Origin: Pseudooceanicola marinus
GTDB lineage: Bacteria; Pseudomonadota; Alphaproteobacteria; Rhodobacterales; Rhodobacteraceae
Direction: 5' to 3'
DNA length: 64,000 nt
NCBI RefSeq assembly: GCF_020177265.1
Contig: NZ_JAIVMC010000011.1
Span: 62,001-126,000 of the forward strand
The notes under the pieces were generated by a model. The model saw only the letters and a program-made list of their open reading frames with translations, searched no databases and was not told the origin of the DNA. Both the position numbers and the translations under genes were made by a program. Below, in pieces: positions 39,639-45,721 of the stretch (its first letter is position 1; every line of letters begins with the position of its first letter).

Positions 39639-40526
39639 TCACGGCGGTCCGTCGCCACGTGGGCGCGGGGCAGGTGTTTCGCTGGCCAGCGTGGCGGGCA
39701 TGACGCACATCGCATCCCCCTGCCCCTCCCGCGCCACGTCACCCGGGCGATGCGGCAGCAGAACCGTGGTCCGTGAAATCCCCAGATCCGCGAGCTGTGC
39801 GGGGGTGCCGCCCCCGAACTCCAGATGTCCGCGACCGATGATGCCCACCACGAGCGGCGCGTCGGGGCGCCGGTGGCGGTCTGCCAGGCGACAGGCGAAG
39901 GCCCGGTCCCAGGTCTGCTGCGCCCGGACGAACCTGTCGAAGGCCGGATCCTCGGCGGACCGCGCCGCGCGCCCCGGGCGGGCGCCGCCGGTGATGTCGA
40001 AAAGATACTGCCGATGCGCCGGGGAGGCCGGGGCGGCGGAGGTCAGCCCCTCGCGATCCGCCTCCGGGATGCCCTCCCACCCCAGTTGGCCGACCTCGCG
40101 CACCAACCCGCGTCGGCAGTTCAGCCCGATCATCTCGATCCCGTTGTCGCGCGCGAAGCGGAACAGCGGCATGTAGAGGGCGATGTCGAAGCCCCAGACG
40201 GTCCCCCATTCGGCGCGTTCGGCAAAGGTCTCCTCTTCCAGCCCGCCGGCGACCCAGTCCGCCAGCACCGGATCCAGGCGGGCCGGGAACATCTCGAACC
40301 CGATGACGATATCCGCACGATGCGCCAGAAGCCCGGCGCAGACATGCATCTGCCAACGGTGATTGCAGGCGCTGTCATGGGTTTCACCCAGCAAGACGGC
40401 CTGCCCGCCCGCAGCCTGTGCCAACACCTCGGCGGTGCTCAAGGACCCGCCTCCGTTCGGGTCAAACCACGTACCGGCGCGGGAATTTACGGGGGCCGAG
40501 CCCTCGGGCAACACATCCAGGCTCAT
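39639..40526 (-). CDS. ChaN-like haem-binding protein
   Basis: This 295-residue protein has the ChaN/Tiki-superfamily N-terminus AVLLGETHDSACNHRWQMHV. It also has the C-terminal RQYLFDITGGARP to VVGIIGRGHLEFGGGTPAQL pattern. Campylobacter ChaN is an outer-membrane lipoprotein that holds two haems. No lipobox or convincing signal peptide is seen here, so it may be cytoplasmic, or the start may be wrong. It is the last gene of a four-gene operon, overlapping the haem-protein gene upstream by 4 bases. Confidence 0.8.
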   Translation of the reverse strand: MSLDVLPEGSAPVNSRAGTWFDPNGGGSLSTAEVLAQAAGGQAVLLGETHDSACNHRWQMHVCAGLLAHRADIVIGFEMFPARLDPVLADWVAGGLEEETFAERAEWGTVWGFDIALYMPLFRFARDNGIEMIGLNCRRGLVREVGQLGWEGIPEADREGLTSAAPASPAHRQYLFDITGGARPGRAARSAEDPAFDRFVRAQQTWDRAFACRLADRHRRPDAPLVVGIIGRGHLEFGGGTPAQLADLGISRTTVLLPHRPGDVAREGQGDAMCVMPATLASETPAPRPRGDGPP

Positions 40527-41260
40527 AGCAGTGTCACCTCAAGCCCGAGGGGCCGTCCCGCGGCATCGAGCGCGCGAAAGTGGTCGCCTTCGCCAGCCCA
40601 GCGGTCGACCACCCCGGGATCGAGGTGCAGGTGAAAGGGCTTCGCGATGACATTGACGCAGCCGCCCATCAGCAGCGGTTCACGCTCCATCGCGCCTTCC
40701 CAGGTCTGGCGGGCAGCCTCGGCTGCCGCGCCAAGGCTGACCGTCACGCGCATGCGGCGGGCTTCGTCGTAGACCCTGCGCATCAGCACGGCAGAGGGAT
40801 CGGCCGGATCCACCTCCGCGATCTCGCCGCCAGTATCGCGCGGCGTCACCGGCAGGGCCTCGCGCCGCATCTCCGGCCAGGGCGCGCAGAAGGCTGCCGC
40901 CCCCTCCAGCCCGGTGACCGAGAAGACATAGGTGCCCGCGGCGTCCCGGAACTCCAGTCGCGGCAACAGCTTGTCCCGCATCTCGATGGTCTGGTCCAGA
41001 ACGACGGAGGCGAGCATGCCCGCCGGCAGGTGGACAAACTCGGCCCCGTCGGCATCGCGCAGCGAGAGAGCCCCGTCCCCGGCGGCCTCCACTGCGCTTA
41101 CATGGCCCAGACGTTCATGCAGGATGCCATCGGTGCGCCGCAGGGCGGTCATCACCCGGTCCATCTGCGGCAACAGCGACAGGAGCGCCAGCGGATCGGC
41201 ATCGGCAAGGCGCCAGCGGCCCTTTTCGTCCACGGCCCAAGTCACGGAGGCATGTGTCAT
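40523..41260 (-). CDS. ChuX/HutX/HemS-like haem-utilization protein
   Basis: This 245-residue protein has the haem-utilization domain look. LASVVLDQTIEMRDKLLPRLEFRDAAG is followed by the C-terminal VNVIAKPFHLHLDPGVVDRW. That FHLHL segment matches the FHLHL(R) stretch shared by ChuX, HutX and HemS. Relatives bind haem in the cytosol and pass it to a degrading enzyme. Family membership rests on this region, so the rest may differ in function. Its 3' end overlaps the ChaN-like gene and its 5' end overlaps the ABC gene, both by 4 bases. Confidence 0.7.
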   Translation of the reverse strand: MTHASVTWAVDEKGRWRLADADPLALLSLLPQMDRVMTALRRTDGILHERLGHVSAVEAAGDGALSLRDADGAEFVHLPAGMLASVVLDQTIEMRDKLLPRLEFRDAAGTYVFSVTGLEGAAAFCAPWPEMRREALPVTPRDTGGEIAEVDPADPSAVLMRRVYDEARRMRVTVSLGAAAEAARQTWEGAMEREPLLMGGCVNVIAKPFHLHLDPGVVDRWAGEGDHFRALDAAGRPLGLEVTLL

Positions 41261-42978
41261 GCGGTTTTCCTTTCATGAGAGGTTTCGGCCCCCAGTTGCA
41301 GGACCCGGTGCCGCCCCAGGCCCGTGGGCACGTCATGAGCGACGCAGAGGATTGTCGCCTCCGGCAGTTCGCGCCGGATCAAGGCCAGGATGTGCTGTTC
41401 GCTGTCATGGTCGAGGGCGCTCGTCGCCTCATCCAGGACGATCCATTCGGGCCGGTTGAGCAGCACCCGGGCCAGGGCCAGCCTCTGGCGTTCGCCCATC
41501 GACAGCCCTTCCATCGCTGCAGGTCCGGCGATGTCCAGCAGCGGCAGGCGGTGCGCCAGCCCGACCTCCGTCAGCACCTCCCGGATGCGGTCGGTCCCGA
41601 AGGCAGCGGGCTCTTTCGGGTAGCTGGCCGCCTCTGCCAGGCCATCGGACACCAGGTAGGGCTTCTGCGGCAGGAACAGCATCGGCGCCTCGGGCCGCCA
41701 GATCTCTCCCCGGCCATAGCGCCACAGGCCCGACAGCGCCGCGAGAAGGGTGCTCTTGCCGATGCCGGACGGGCCGCAGAGCCAGACCACCTCGCCCGGC
41801 GAGACGGTCATGTCGGGCACGGGATCCAGCGCCCGGCCCTGCGGCGTGAACAGCACCAGGTCGCGCAGGCGCACGGTGCCGTTCTCGCAGGTCCGGTGAA
41901 CAATCTCCCTGGGGGCCTCCGGCATGGGATCGGGATCGCCGGCACTGGCAAAGAGGTCGTCCAGCCGTTCGGAGACGGCGGCGATATCCGCCAGCGCCTT
42001 GTAGTTGAAGATGAACCAGCTCAGCGTCTGGGTGACGCGGCCAAAGGCGCCGGACAGCTGCATCAGCCCGCCGAACGTCACGAAGCCGGCGAAATAGGCG
42101 GGCAACGAGAAGAACAACGGCACCCGCAGGATGGTCTGGAAATAGGGGCGATAGAAGATGTTCAGGATCGCCTCCCGCCGGATCAGCCCGAGCCAGTTGG
42201 CCCGGATGGCACCGAAGCGTCCCCGCAGGCGGCGCAGCTCCGCCGCCTCACCGCCCGACTGGGAAATCTCGGTCGCATTGTCGCGCAGCTGCACGAGGGT
42301 ATGCCGGAAATCCGCCTCACGCTTTTCCTGCCCGAAGTAGAGCGGCTTCAGCTCCCGCCCCATCAGGTGGGTGATCAGGCTGGAGACCGCGACATAGAGG
42401 AAGGCCAGCCAGACCAGGTAGCGCGACACGGAAATCTCGACGCCGCCCAGGGAGAAGGACAGGACAAAGGCGGTCAGACCCCAGAGGACGACCAGGTAGC
42501 TGACGATCGAGACGCAGTTCTCGATCAGGTCGATCGATAGCATCAGCAGCTTCTCGATGAACAGCCGGCAATCCTCGGCCACCCGCTGATCGGGGTTGTC
42601 CACCGGACGTGGGGTCTGGCCGGGACGCAGGTGCCAGTAGGCCCTGTTTCCCGTCCAGGCATCCAGCGCCCGGTCGGTCAGCCGTGCCCGCCAGCGCAAC
42701 AGCAAGCGCTTTCGCAGGTAGTCGGCGACAATGAAGGCCGTCGCCTGCGCCCCCACCAGCGCGAAGAAAACCCCCAGCTCCCGCAGGGTGGCCGGAAGGT
42801 CGAGCTGTTCCACCGCGTCGTAGAACCGCCCGGTCCATGCGATCATCAGAACGCTGGTCCAGATCGACACGAAGCCGAGGCCGAGCACCACCGCATATAC
42901 GACAAGGCCCTTCCAGGCCTGCGGCCCTGAGGCCGCAAGCCAGGTCAGGCGCCAGATCCGCCCGAGTATCCGTTTCAT
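41257..42978 (-). CDS. SbmA/BacA-YddA-like ABC transporter, fused permease-ATPase
   Basis: This 573-residue half-transporter has an N-terminal membrane domain of the ABC_membrane_2 type. It is marked by WRARLTDRALDAWTGNRAYW and the VDNPDQRVAEDCRLF stretch around 110-125, plus about six helices. The ATPase half has Walker A GPSGIGKSTLL at about 400, signature LSMGERQRLAL at about 497 and Walker B WIVLDEATSALD near 515-526. Relatives move peptides, cobalamin or other large solutes. A 1-base overlap with the TonB receptor gene implies a common pathway. Confidence 0.88.
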   Translation of the reverse strand: MKRILGRIWRLTWLAASGPQAWKGLVVYAVVLGLGFVSIWTSVLMIAWTGRFYDAVEQLDLPATLRELGVFFALVGAQATAFIVADYLRKRLLLRWRARLTDRALDAWTGNRAYWHLRPGQTPRPVDNPDQRVAEDCRLFIEKLLMLSIDLIENCVSIVSYLVVLWGLTAFVLSFSLGGVEISVSRYLVWLAFLYVAVSSLITHLMGRELKPLYFGQEKREADFRHTLVQLRDNATEISQSGGEAAELRRLRGRFGAIRANWLGLIRREAILNIFYRPYFQTILRVPLFFSLPAYFAGFVTFGGLMQLSGAFGRVTQTLSWFIFNYKALADIAAVSERLDDLFASAGDPDPMPEAPREIVHRTCENGTVRLRDLVLFTPQGRALDPVPDMTVSPGEVVWLCGPSGIGKSTLLAALSGLWRYGRGEIWRPEAPMLFLPQKPYLVSDGLAEAASYPKEPAAFGTDRIREVLTEVGLAHRLPLLDIAGPAAMEGLSMGERQRLALARVLLNRPEWIVLDEATSALDHDSEQHILALIRRELPEATILCVAHDVPTGLGRHRVLQLGAETSHERKTA

Positions 42979-45233
42979 CAGAATTCGATGTCCAGGCTGA
43001 CCTGAAGGGTACGCCCCGCGCCGGTGGTCAGCTCAAGCGGGCTTTGCGCCGCGACCGCCGTCGACGGCGTGGTGGTGCGCCCGATGGCATCCGCCGTGAA
43101 ATACCGCGTGTCGAAGACGTTCTGCACCCCGACATTCAGCACCGCGTTGTCGCGCACCCGCCACTTGCCGTAGAGATCCAGGATCGCGTAGCCATCCGGC
43201 TTGAACCCGGTCTCGGTGGCGGTCTTCTTGACCTCCGATGCCATGGTCGTGACGGCCTCGATGGACAGGTTGTGTTGCGGCAGGTCGTGACCGAAGGTGA
43301 CGCTGGCGGTCAGCGGCGCCAGGTTGAAGGGCGTCTTTTCCCCCCCTGCCATCGCACGTTGCTTGCCCTCCTGGTAGGCCAGCGTATAGCCCAGCCAGCT
43401 GCGCGGGCTCAGATCCCGGGCGCCCGAGAGTTCGATCCCCCAGATCTCCACCTCGTTCAGGTTGCGGTAGGTGTAGGTGCTGGTGCCGGGAATGTTGTAG
43501 AAGTTCTCGATGAAGTCGCTGTATTCCGAACGGAAGACATTGACGGCGGTATAGCCACTGTCCCCTTCGTGGCGCAGGCCAAGCTCGTAGCTCTTCACGT
43601 ATTCGGGTTTCAGGCCGGGCGCGGGGACCAGCCCGAAGCTCGGGTTGGATTGGAACAGCTGCTGCGCGGTCGGCATCTTGAAGCCTTCGCCATACTTCGC
43701 CCAGATCGAAATGCTGTCGGTCACGTGGTACATCGCACCGAGGCTGAGCAGCCATTCCTCATCCTCGCGCACCCGTGGTTCCGATCCGGGGTCTACAACG
43801 TAGTCGGCATCGGGCTTCGGATCGATCCTGTAGGTTGCCAGCCGCACGCCCGGCGTCAGCTCGAAGGCGCCGCCGCCGAAGATCATGTGATCCTGCGCAT
43901 AGAGATCCGCGCGCCGGGTTTCCGCATTGGTGAAATTGAATCCCCCCGCCCGGCTTTCGCTGCTGGTGCCAGCGGTCAGGTTTCTTTCCCGGCTGATGCG
44001 CTGGTAGTCCGTATGCGCGATGTCGCCATCGAAGCCGAAGACCAGCTCGTGATCGACGATGCCTGTGACGAAGCGCTTGGTCGCCTGGATGTCCAGCTCA
44101 TAGAAATCCTCGGAATAATTGAGGATGTTCGTCTCGCGGATGGCATCGCCCGAGGGCGAGGTGTTGTTCTGGAAGCTGAGGCTTTCGTAGCTGTGGGGCA
44201 CATAGGCGAAGGTCGTCTTCAGCTCGTCCAGCCAGCCGGAGGACGGGGTCCAGCTGTGCTCCACTGCGTAGCGGTCGCGGGTCAGGTCGAGGTGTCGGTC
44301 GTAGGCATGGATGATCTCGCCCGTCGGCAGGCCGGTGAAGGAGGAATAGACCGGGCCCAGGCTTTGCTTCTGATCGACATCCGTCTCCCGCCGCAGCAGG
44401 TCCGCGGTGAATTCCAGGCGATGGTCGCTGTTGGGGGTCCAGACCAGCTTTGCCAGCAGACGCTCCGAGCTCTGATCGGTCGGATCCAGCTTGTCACAGG
44501 CAATCGCGCCATAGTCGATGTTGCGCGGGCAGCCGTAGAAGCCACCGTCCGCCCGCGCGCGGGACCGCTCCACCTCGTGGCTTTCCTCGCGCTTGTAGCC
44601 CAGCATGACCTCCAGCCCCTCGGCCAGTCGCTGGGCAAAGATCGCCTCTGCGGTGGTCCGATCGTTGAGGCTGTCGAAGCTCATCCCGGCGCGGGCACCG
44701 CGATCGCGCCCCTCAAGGATGTCCTCGGGATCAACGGTTTCCACGGCCAGAAGGCCCCCAAGGGAATCCGCGCCCCAGAGGACGGAGGCCGGTCCGCGCA
44801 CGATCTCGGCCTGCTTGGTAAAGGACAGGTCAACGTAATCGCGGGTGCCGTCGGTGATCCGTTCCGCCACGCGCGAGCCGTCCACCTGCATCCCGACACG
44901 GTTGCCGCCCACGCCCCGGATGGTGATGCCGCCGATCGTGTTGAACGGGTCGGTCGAATTGGTCTGCCGGCTGATCGTCACGCCCGGCTCGTAGCGCAGC
45001 AGATCGTCGAGATCGTTTATGTCGCGGCTCTCTATGTCCTCGTCCGTGACGACGCTGATGTTCGCGGTCTCGTCCAGCACCGTCCCCCCGGAACGGTCAG
45101 AGCTGACGACGATCGCCTCCAGCTCGGTCGGGGCCTGCTGCGCCAGCGCGGGGCTGGACAGGAAGGTTCCCAGAAGAAGCAGCGCGGAAAAACTGCGCGC
45201 GGTCGTGTTGGGGGATGAGTCGTTGCAAGCCAT
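42978..45233 (-). CDS. TonB-dependent receptor, haem/haemoglobin-receptor type
   Basis: This 751-residue outer-membrane protein has a signal peptide ending near ALAQ. The plug domain with a TonB-box-like ELEAIVV lies near residue 37-43, and the usual barrel ends in a terminal aromatic (LDIEF). The plug contains LRYEPGVTISRQ and IRGVGGNRVGMQVDG. The haem-receptor FRAP/NPNL region is altered to EGFKMPTAQQLFQSNPSFGLVPAPGLKPEY. It is the first gene of the operon. I found no Fur box in the upstream 150 bases by eye. Confidence 0.85.
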   Translation of the reverse strand: MACNDSSPNTTARSFSALLLLGTFLSSPALAQQAPTELEAIVVSSDRSGGTVLDETANISVVTDEDIESRDINDLDDLLRYEPGVTISRQTNSTDPFNTIGGITIRGVGGNRVGMQVDGSRVAERITDGTRDYVDLSFTKQAEIVRGPASVLWGADSLGGLLAVETVDPEDILEGRDRGARAGMSFDSLNDRTTAEAIFAQRLAEGLEVMLGYKREESHEVERSRARADGGFYGCPRNIDYGAIACDKLDPTDQSSERLLAKLVWTPNSDHRLEFTADLLRRETDVDQKQSLGPVYSSFTGLPTGEIIHAYDRHLDLTRDRYAVEHSWTPSSGWLDELKTTFAYVPHSYESLSFQNNTSPSGDAIRETNILNYSEDFYELDIQATKRFVTGIVDHELVFGFDGDIAHTDYQRISRERNLTAGTSSESRAGGFNFTNAETRRADLYAQDHMIFGGGAFELTPGVRLATYRIDPKPDADYVVDPGSEPRVREDEEWLLSLGAMYHVTDSISIWAKYGEGFKMPTAQQLFQSNPSFGLVPAPGLKPEYVKSYELGLRHEGDSGYTAVNVFRSEYSDFIENFYNIPGTSTYTYRNLNEVEIWGIELSGARDLSPRSWLGYTLAYQEGKQRAMAGGEKTPFNLAPLTASVTFGHDLPQHNLSIEAVTTMASEVKKTATETGFKPDGYAILDLYGKWRVRDNAVLNVGVQNVFDTRYFTADAIGRTTTPSTAVAAQSPLELTTGAGRTLQVSLDIEF

Positions 45234-45672
45234 TGAATGTCCCTCTTGCTCGTGTCCGATGGCAAGCGGGAGGTGTCTGGCTAGCTGTGACGCGCCAATA
45301 AATCACTGCTTCCGAAAGAGGAACCCCAGGCCGGTCCTTCGTCGGCGCACTGGCTGGATACGTGGCCGAATAGTCACAAACATGAGGCCATTCGGTTTCG
45401 GCAGAGCGCCGCGACGATGGCCGGAAACGCCACTGCCCGCCACACGACTCGAGACGATGCATGTAACGTCTCATGGCGAGGGCAGAGGGCGCCGCTCGCA
45501 GAAATCGTCCAGTCTCTCGGGCACTTCATCCCGAAGATCAGCAGGCCAACCTAGAGCCGGTTTCCTCCTGACCACCTGCGTCGCACGAACGGGACCCATG
45601 GTTTCAAAGGCCCATCCCGGGCTCAATTACCCAAAGAGAAACCTTATAAACCGGTGTAAGCCTTTGACTACA
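45234..45672. other. Gene-free stretch upstream of the TonB receptor
   Basis: No convincing gene is present. The frame running through 45019-45678 is the antisense of the receptor N-terminus and then random sequence. The promoter of the receptor operon must lie in the left part, but I see no strong -35/-10 pair. It is less GC-rich than the rest, especially near 45620-45670. Confidence 0.45.
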
Positions 45673-45721
45673 TGGTGACCCCGGCAGGATTCGAACCTGC
45701 AACCTGCCCCTTAGGAGGGGG
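45673..45721 (-). pseudogene. 3' half of tRNA-Arg(CCU), candidate attachment-site remnant
   Basis: Read on the minus strand, this is CCCCCTCCTAAGGGGCAGG, a T arm of GCAGG-TTCGAAT-CCTGC, and GGGGTCACCA with an encoded CCA. The anticodon loop CTCCTAA gives anticodon CCU. The D arm and 5' acceptor strand are absent; sequence before CCCCC bears no resemblance to a tRNA. Truncation within the anticodon arm is typical of tRNA-integrating phage or island att sites. Confidence 0.7.

Follow-up and report, generated by a model that had tools for sequence, protein, structure and literature searches.

A conserved four-gene cassette of Pseudooceanicola marinus: a candidate haem or haem-like tetrapyrrole importer without a binding protein

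A 64,000-nt stretch of the Pseudooceanicola marinus genome (contig NZ_JAIVMC010000011.1, positions 62,001 to 126,000), hereafter the window, carries an operon encoding a TonB-dependent receptor, a fused SbmA/BacA-like ATP-binding cassette (ABC) transporter, a protein resembling a shortened HmuS and a ChaN-domain protein. We consider it moderately probable that this cassette is a self-contained importer of haem, or of a close haem-like tetrapyrrole, working without a periplasmic binding protein. Both substrate and direction of transport are what we infer from several lines of evidence: the receptor fits haem receptor models, is nearest to PhuR and is accompanied by HmuS-like and ChaN-domain partners; the gene order is conserved, the ABC transporters form a dedicated clade and one of them is fused to ChaN; and two of ten genomes with the cassette gave no hmuT match and only distant hmuU matches. 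The first-pass annotation had suggested a binding-protein-free importer of haem, cobalamin or another tetrapyrrole; a conserved haem-family gene set without a binding protein of its own agrees with this, and cobalamin is disfavoured.

According to this proposal, the receptor would bind the substrate at the cell surface and move it into the periplasm with energy from TonB. The BacA-type ABC transporter, presumably a homodimer, would then carry it over the inner membrane, with no periplasmic binding protein involved. ChaN, usually together with the HmuS-like protein, would receive the cargo near the cytoplasmic ATPase face and store it, hand it on or process it.

Protein families of the cassette

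All four open reading frames (ORFs) were found on the minus strand in the order first described (Table 1), with successive overlaps of 1, 4 and 4 bases.

Table 1. Genes of the cassette (window coordinates)
Gene	Position	Strand	Length and product
receptor gene, first in operon	42978..45233 (45233-42978)	minus	751 aa; TonB-dependent, haem/haemoglobin type
fused ABC transporter gene	41257..42978	minus	573 aa; transmembrane domain (TMD) + nucleotide-binding domain (NBD), SbmA/BacA-like
HmuS-like gene	40523..41260	minus	245 aa; shortened, probably two-repeat HmuS/HemS-like, presumed cytoplasmic
chaN gene	39639..40526	minus	295 aa; ChaN-domain (Tiki superfamily), no visible signal peptide/lipobox

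The receptor passed both haem-type models, TIGR01786 (336.8 bits; cut-off 323.75) and TIGR01785 (319 bits; cut-off 316.85), confirming the haem-type outer-membrane receptor recognized earlier. Its closest PDB structure was PhuR (8the, E 2e-58, residues 43-747), and its identity to the receptors of eight other cassettes ranged from 48 to 67%. Classical receptors are expected to hold their haem ligands in the plug loop and in the FRAP/NPNL-type loop. At the FRAP/NPNL position this receptor reads FKMP ... APGL, so the reported lack of clean motifs holds. Its diagnostic value does not, because the receptor encoded divergently from hmuSTUV in this genome also has neither FRAP nor NPNL. Additionally, two cysteines (C235 and C246) following an invariant tyrosine were invariant in 9/9 aligned receptors (residues 233-246; window 44496-44537, minus strand); this pair perhaps forms an outer-loop disulfide.

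A cassette for a ferric siderophore or another iron chelate, with ChaN and the HmuS-like protein as iron-releasing enzymes, seems unlikely to us. The missing conserved histidine in the expected haem-ligand loops of the receptors would fit such a cargo, as would a palindrome, probably of iron-regulator shape, in the leaders of relatives. However, the siderophore receptor model TIGR01783 gave 177.1, under its cut-off of 223.5, whereas both haem models were passed, and two of the partners come from haem-related families. IrtAB (PMC10246721) and YbtPQ (PMC10967856) are described as exporter-fold ABC importers of siderophores, which favours the chelate reading and also makes the import direction plausible.

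The first-pass annotation had called the second gene a fused BacA/SbmA-type ABC transporter, and PF06472, PF05992 and PF00005 (residues 389-520) were indeed all found in one chain. The Walker A, signature, Walker B and H-loop motifs are intact. No other ABC match of the genome extended into the first 294 residues of the membrane domain (0/66; 150 of 163 candidates scored). The best PDB match was 6tqe (233 bits), which we take to be Rv1819c, and the lysosomal cobalamin transporter ABCD4 matched as well (E 5e-23); IrtAB and YbtPQ were absent from the best 60 of 237 PDB matches.

These two matches would suit an importer of cobalamin or another corrinoid, like the mycobacterial BacA-type ABC transporter, as would the cobalamin transport by mycobacterial BacA described in PMC10960864. 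We nevertheless regard this substrate as improbable. The B12 receptor model TIGR01779 gave 109.9, far under its cut-off of 599.7, and neither the window nor the cassette region of the eight relatives scanned yielded a cobalamin riboswitch. The sole match (L014:833-1042, minus strand) lies beside another TonB-receptor-like match, approximately 3 kb from the cassette and on the opposite strand. Moreover, we know of no corrinoid-related role for the families of the cassette partners.

In a tree of 43 ABC transporters, the 14 cassette members formed a single clade (support 100/99), apart from 28 BacA-type ABC transporters of the class. The cassette rows were the window, L012-L015, L053-L056, L106-L109 and the three-gene locus L077/L111 (genome G730), the broken locus L057 being excluded. 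The 43rd row, from Tistrella, sits on a branch 1.61 long and its placement is unsure; Rv1819c was not in the tree, and the separate group holds for the sample tested. No ChaN or HmuS-like match occurred within 1.5 kb of the 28 non-cassette ABC transporters, and only a weak partial receptor match (30% identity, E 3e-8) was found near one of them (L105). Among the 29 class-level ABC loci other than that of the window, one (L077) had a receptor and ChaN within 1.5 kb. This survey covered 385 genomes, 68 of them with an ABC match, and some loci were cut by contig ends.

The third protein had no match above the curated cut-offs in Pfam or NCBIfam (HemS 17.2 bits, cut-off 24; ChuX_HutX 15.8 bits, cut-off 25), and the true HmuS of the same genome scored 250.8. 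Three database relatives (44-46% identity) carry both PF05171 and PF06228. Alignment of an 8-row HmuS-like profile with a 7-row HmuS profile by hhalign gave a probability of 98.6% and an E-value of 9e-15 (for a single one-against-one comparison) over 230 columns, covering both HmuS repeats and skipping the central segment. The third protein is thus, as judged from its profile, a shortened HmuS-like protein. It had been described as a ChuX/HutX-like haem protein; the superfamily was right, and membership of true HutX was rejected because of the scores below the Pfam cut-offs and the alignment across both HmuS repeats. The C-terminal motif is kept: His212 aligns with His312 of HmuS, a second invariant histidine stands at 210, and FHLHL was invariant in 8/8 HmuS-like rows. 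The predicted structure had a mean pLDDT of 84.5 (6-row alignment), and a PDB search with this protein returned nothing but cytochrome f pieces.

The ChaN-like assignment of the fourth protein was upheld by PF04187 (183.2 bits, cut-off 27.7; residues 35-245), and a PDB search gave no match. Six residues (E48, H50, D51, H56, E78 and H234) were invariant in nine aligned rows, which would suggest metal-dependent chemistry of the kind found in the Tiki superfamily. By eye, 8/9 rows start only a short way before the domain, with no hydrophobic segment or lipobox seen; the N-terminus of the remaining one (L055) is longer and its start uncertain. In an 852-aa database protein (P0031 of Sulfitobacter sp. 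CW3, known from a single contig), this ABC transporter (NBD 390-520) is directly followed by ChaN (600-810). This fusion suggests that ChaN is the closest partner of the cassette ABC transporter and lies on the side of the NBD. Together with the missing signal, it points to a cytoplasmic ChaN, provided that the NBD is cytoplasmic.

Distribution of the cassette and relation to the hmu system

The co-occurrence of the four families in relatives, proposed earlier as a check, was found: 14 of 16 loci with receptor and ABC transporter carried all four genes in the same order (the window and the broken L057 counted). The first-pass annotation had said that its proposal would fall if such operons were never seen together, and this recurrence runs counter to that refutation. 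Carriers belong to Rhodobacterales and Hyphomicrobiales, and some copies are plasmid-borne. The TonB receptor was the first gene in 16/16 loci, although an exporter would need none. Export of surplus haem by the ABC transporter, with the receptor merely co-regulated, is accordingly very improbable in our view, and among the ten loci compared neither an efflux adaptor nor an outer-membrane factor is recurrent. For export speak the exporter-type fold and the bidirectional transport reported for mycobacterial BacA in PMC10960864.

Scanning genome contigs with the HmuS-like profile gave four confirmed loci (L012-L015) among 59 stretches, and 4/4 had the ordered four genes; L053-L057 were chosen via HmuS-like and ABC searches, and co-occurrence in L012-L015 and L053-L057 is partly due to this selection. 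Strong HmuS-like matches (at least 175 bits) were found in 7 of 390 sampled genomes of the order. Another 91 genomes gave only weak ones (at most 48 bits), mostly in the C-terminal region of longer frames of HmuS size. The ABC profile (E <=1e-100, three candidates scored per genome) matched the same 7 of 390 genomes, and its matches adjoined the HmuS-like gene in 7/7; in G141 the two are 151 bases apart, and in G328 the ABC gene is partial. The receptor and ChaN were also present in stretches from six of these genomes. A chance neighbourhood of the four genes is ruled out by the recurrent order and this side-by-side co-occurrence in sampled genomes. Two other genomes of the genus of the window had neither the HmuS-like nor the ABC gene at these thresholds.

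The receptor search in plasmids (E 1e-80) returned six records, and four of the five inspected (all except H2) carry all four genes, namely Paracoccus aminophilus pAMI4 (beside repABC), Devosia neptuniae, Pannonibacter phragmitetus and Rhizobium sp., in which the HmuS-like match spans two annotated small ORFs. The fifth, Tistrella, has only the receptor and the ABC transporter; the other five records were also found by a separate search with the HmuS-like protein.

As the first-pass annotation had stated, HmuT and HmuUV are missing from the cassette. None is encoded by its four genes, and neither a periplasmic binding protein nor a gene of HmuUV type is recurrent in the ten loci compared or in the four annotated plasmid loci. 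Apart from the four genes and any ORFs that overlap them, no ORF family was common to more than three of the ten loci.

Three side observations concern individual loci. In L057 (G328:C159), the receptor and ABC genes seem to be broken by frame changes, reflecting decay or an assembly error. An unrelated-looking iron ABC set lies approximately 3 kb beyond the cassette on the Devosia plasmid. L012 (JAHVJD010000002.1) is titled Nocardioides marinus; it is contig G143:C2, of the window's own family, and the title looks wrong. Genome G143 is one of the seven genomes above.

The genome of the window also has hmuS, hmuT, hmuU and hmuV with a divergent haem-type receptor on another contig (C10). Pfam detected HemS (twice), Peripla_BP_2, FecCD and ABC_tran in this cluster. 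In NCBIfam, HmuV scores above the cut-off of the haem ATPase model, while HmuU comes closest to BtuC models and the receptor to TIGR01785, both below cut-off; HmuS and HmuT had no match at E 1e-20. The designations hmuT and hmuU are thus based on Pfam family and gene order. The first-pass annotation had counted a complete hmu operon elsewhere, coupled with a deletion effect on an unrelated solute only, against its own proposal, and the operon was found. The complete hmuSTUV means that the cassette does not replace the hmu system here.

A relative of hmuT was detected in eight of ten cassette genomes, with half of the matches crossing in-frame stops (G388, G390, G293 and G328). G143 and Roseovarius halotolerans CECT 8110 (G391, locus L014) gave no hmuT match at E 1e-10 with a single-protein query, and their best hmuU matches reached 38-39% identity. 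Hence, the cassette may stand alone as the sole such route in these two genomes. In the sample of 390 genomes, which does not include G391, G143 and G141 gave no HemS-domain match at E 1e-10. A link through hemP was dropped as uninformative: hemP occurs in 10/10 cassette genomes and equally in 317 of the 390 genomes of the order (HemS domains: 143/390).

Leader sequences and points against haem import

A palindrome like TTGACTnAAATnnTCA was found approximately 95-180 bases upstream of the receptor start in 10/12 leaders of relatives (no more than 19 of 1000 mononucleotide shuffles scored as well). Among the leaders of hmu-linked receptors, 2/6 matched it at no more than 6 of 1000 shuffles. The test excluded L057, L110 and L111, and uncertain starts in L053 and L056 shift the distances by tens of bases. 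The TGA-N9-TCA shape is, we assume, that of the RirA IRO box; the TGA string was not found in the text of the RirA paper searched. RirA represses iron uptake through IRO boxes, according to PMC6748827. The palindrome in relatives, though not in the window, suggests iron-responsive control of the cassette.

Approximately 420 bases upstream of the operon in the window, a piece of 66 bases (45656-45721, minus strand) matches the 3' part of tRNA-Arg(CCT) and the 17 bases that follow it at 92% identity; another 111 bases close by show a match of 75%. The intact tRNA-Arg(CCT) gene is at G000:C12:775-851, and ARAGORN found no tRNA in the window. The 66-base piece may be the attachment site of an element that once integrated directly before the operon, and the leader of the window may have been rearranged.

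In addition, pairs of CCAGC spaced 6-12 bases apart were seen in 4/13 cassette leaders (L012, L014, L015 and L055) and in 4/6 leaders of hmu-linked receptors (L003, L060, L064 and L065); the window leader has none. They mostly lie 45-62 bases before the start codon of a haem-type receptor (L064: -172), and a stricter form occurs 28 times in 426 kb of loci, duplicates included. These pairs could be a shared regulatory element.

Several points weigh against the cassette as a haem importer. Neither the plug loop nor the FKMP...P(N/D/G)L loop of the nine aligned receptors contains an invariant histidine. The HmuS segment skipped in the profile alignment (DTHxF) holds His228, present in 7/7 HmuS rows, and the HmuS-like protein is without it. 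The HmuS-like gene is missing in L111, where G730 has receptor, ABC transporter and ChaN, and both it and chaN are missing in L110, which indicates that neither is indispensable to every receptor-ABC pair. The genome of the window already has hmuSTUV, and the cassette is a second system there. The palindrome is missing from the window leader (968 of 1000 shuffles did equally well, and no match was found in the window at three mismatches) and from the leaders of L055 and L109. Moreover, 8 of the 12 relatives had served for deriving the consensus by eye, leaving four plasmid leaders as independent cases, 3/4 of them positive. Finally, haem or a tetrapyrrole as substrate is suggested indirectly, by the families to which the sequences belong.

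The missing receptor histidine and the lost histidine segment of HmuS leave room for a modified tetrapyrrole, and the invariant ChaN residues for an enzymatic role. We put forward, tentatively, that the cassette might represent a distinct class of tetrapyrrole importer. In this class, a BacA-type ABC transporter dedicated to a TonB receptor would deliver cargo to a cytoplasmic ChaN, a Tiki-superfamily enzyme that processes it as it enters at the ATPase face. The cargo would possibly be a modified tetrapyrrole needing no axial histidine, such as a breakdown product of chlorophyll or haem, rather than haem.

Comparison with known systems

No description of the cassette was found among the literature matches listed (open-licence papers); the parts are known, and their combination and the dedicated ABC group appear new. 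In textbook haem import by Gram-negative bacteria, a binding protein works with a BtuCD-fold pump. If import of haem or a haem-like tetrapyrrole is correct, a mobile cassette of receptor and BacA-type pump would provide a second inner-membrane haem route, a branch of the BacA/Rv1819c family would gain an outer-membrane partner, and ChaN, whose family is of unclear role, would be placed on the cytoplasmic side of an importer. The cassette is portable, with relatives in several groups of Alphaproteobacteria, and genomes that have it but show no hmuT and no close hmuU make the importer idea directly testable genetically.

Like Rv1819c, the mycobacterial BacA that transports cobalamin and hydrophilic solutes, the cassette ABC transporter is a fused SbmA/BacA-like TMD-NBD protein with intact ATPase motifs; unlike it, it adjoins a TonB receptor and haem-type partners and forms its own group in the sample tested. 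The proton-driven SbmA/BacA peptide transporter (SLiPT) lacks an ATPase domain, whereas the cassette protein has PF00005. Like IrtAB and YbtPQ, the cassette would bring an iron compound into the cell through an ABC transporter of exporter fold, but it combines an SbmA/BacA-like ABC transporter with a haem-type receptor. BtuB-type cobalamin uptake differs in the cobalamin riboswitch, which was not found upstream of the cassette here or in the eight relatives scanned.

The ChaN of Campylobacter jejuni is a haem-binding lipoprotein. It shares the PF04187 domain with the cassette ChaN, which has no visible signal or lipobox and in one relative is fused behind the NBD. ChuX/HutX and the HmuS-like protein belong to the HemS/ChuX superfamily, but the latter, with 245 amino acids, aligns across both HmuS repeats and scores under both Pfam cut-offs.

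The HmuRSTUV/PhuRSTUV systems consist of a receptor, HmuS, the binding protein HmuT, the permease HmuU and the ATPase HmuV. The cassette resembles them in its haem-family TonB receptor, its HmuS-related protein and its probable job. Unlike them, it has no HmuT, HmuU or HmuV; a single PF06472/PF05992/PF00005 protein, the fused BacA-type ABC transporter, replaces the FecCD-type permease and the separate ATPase, HmuS is represented by a shortened HmuS-like protein, and ChaN is added.

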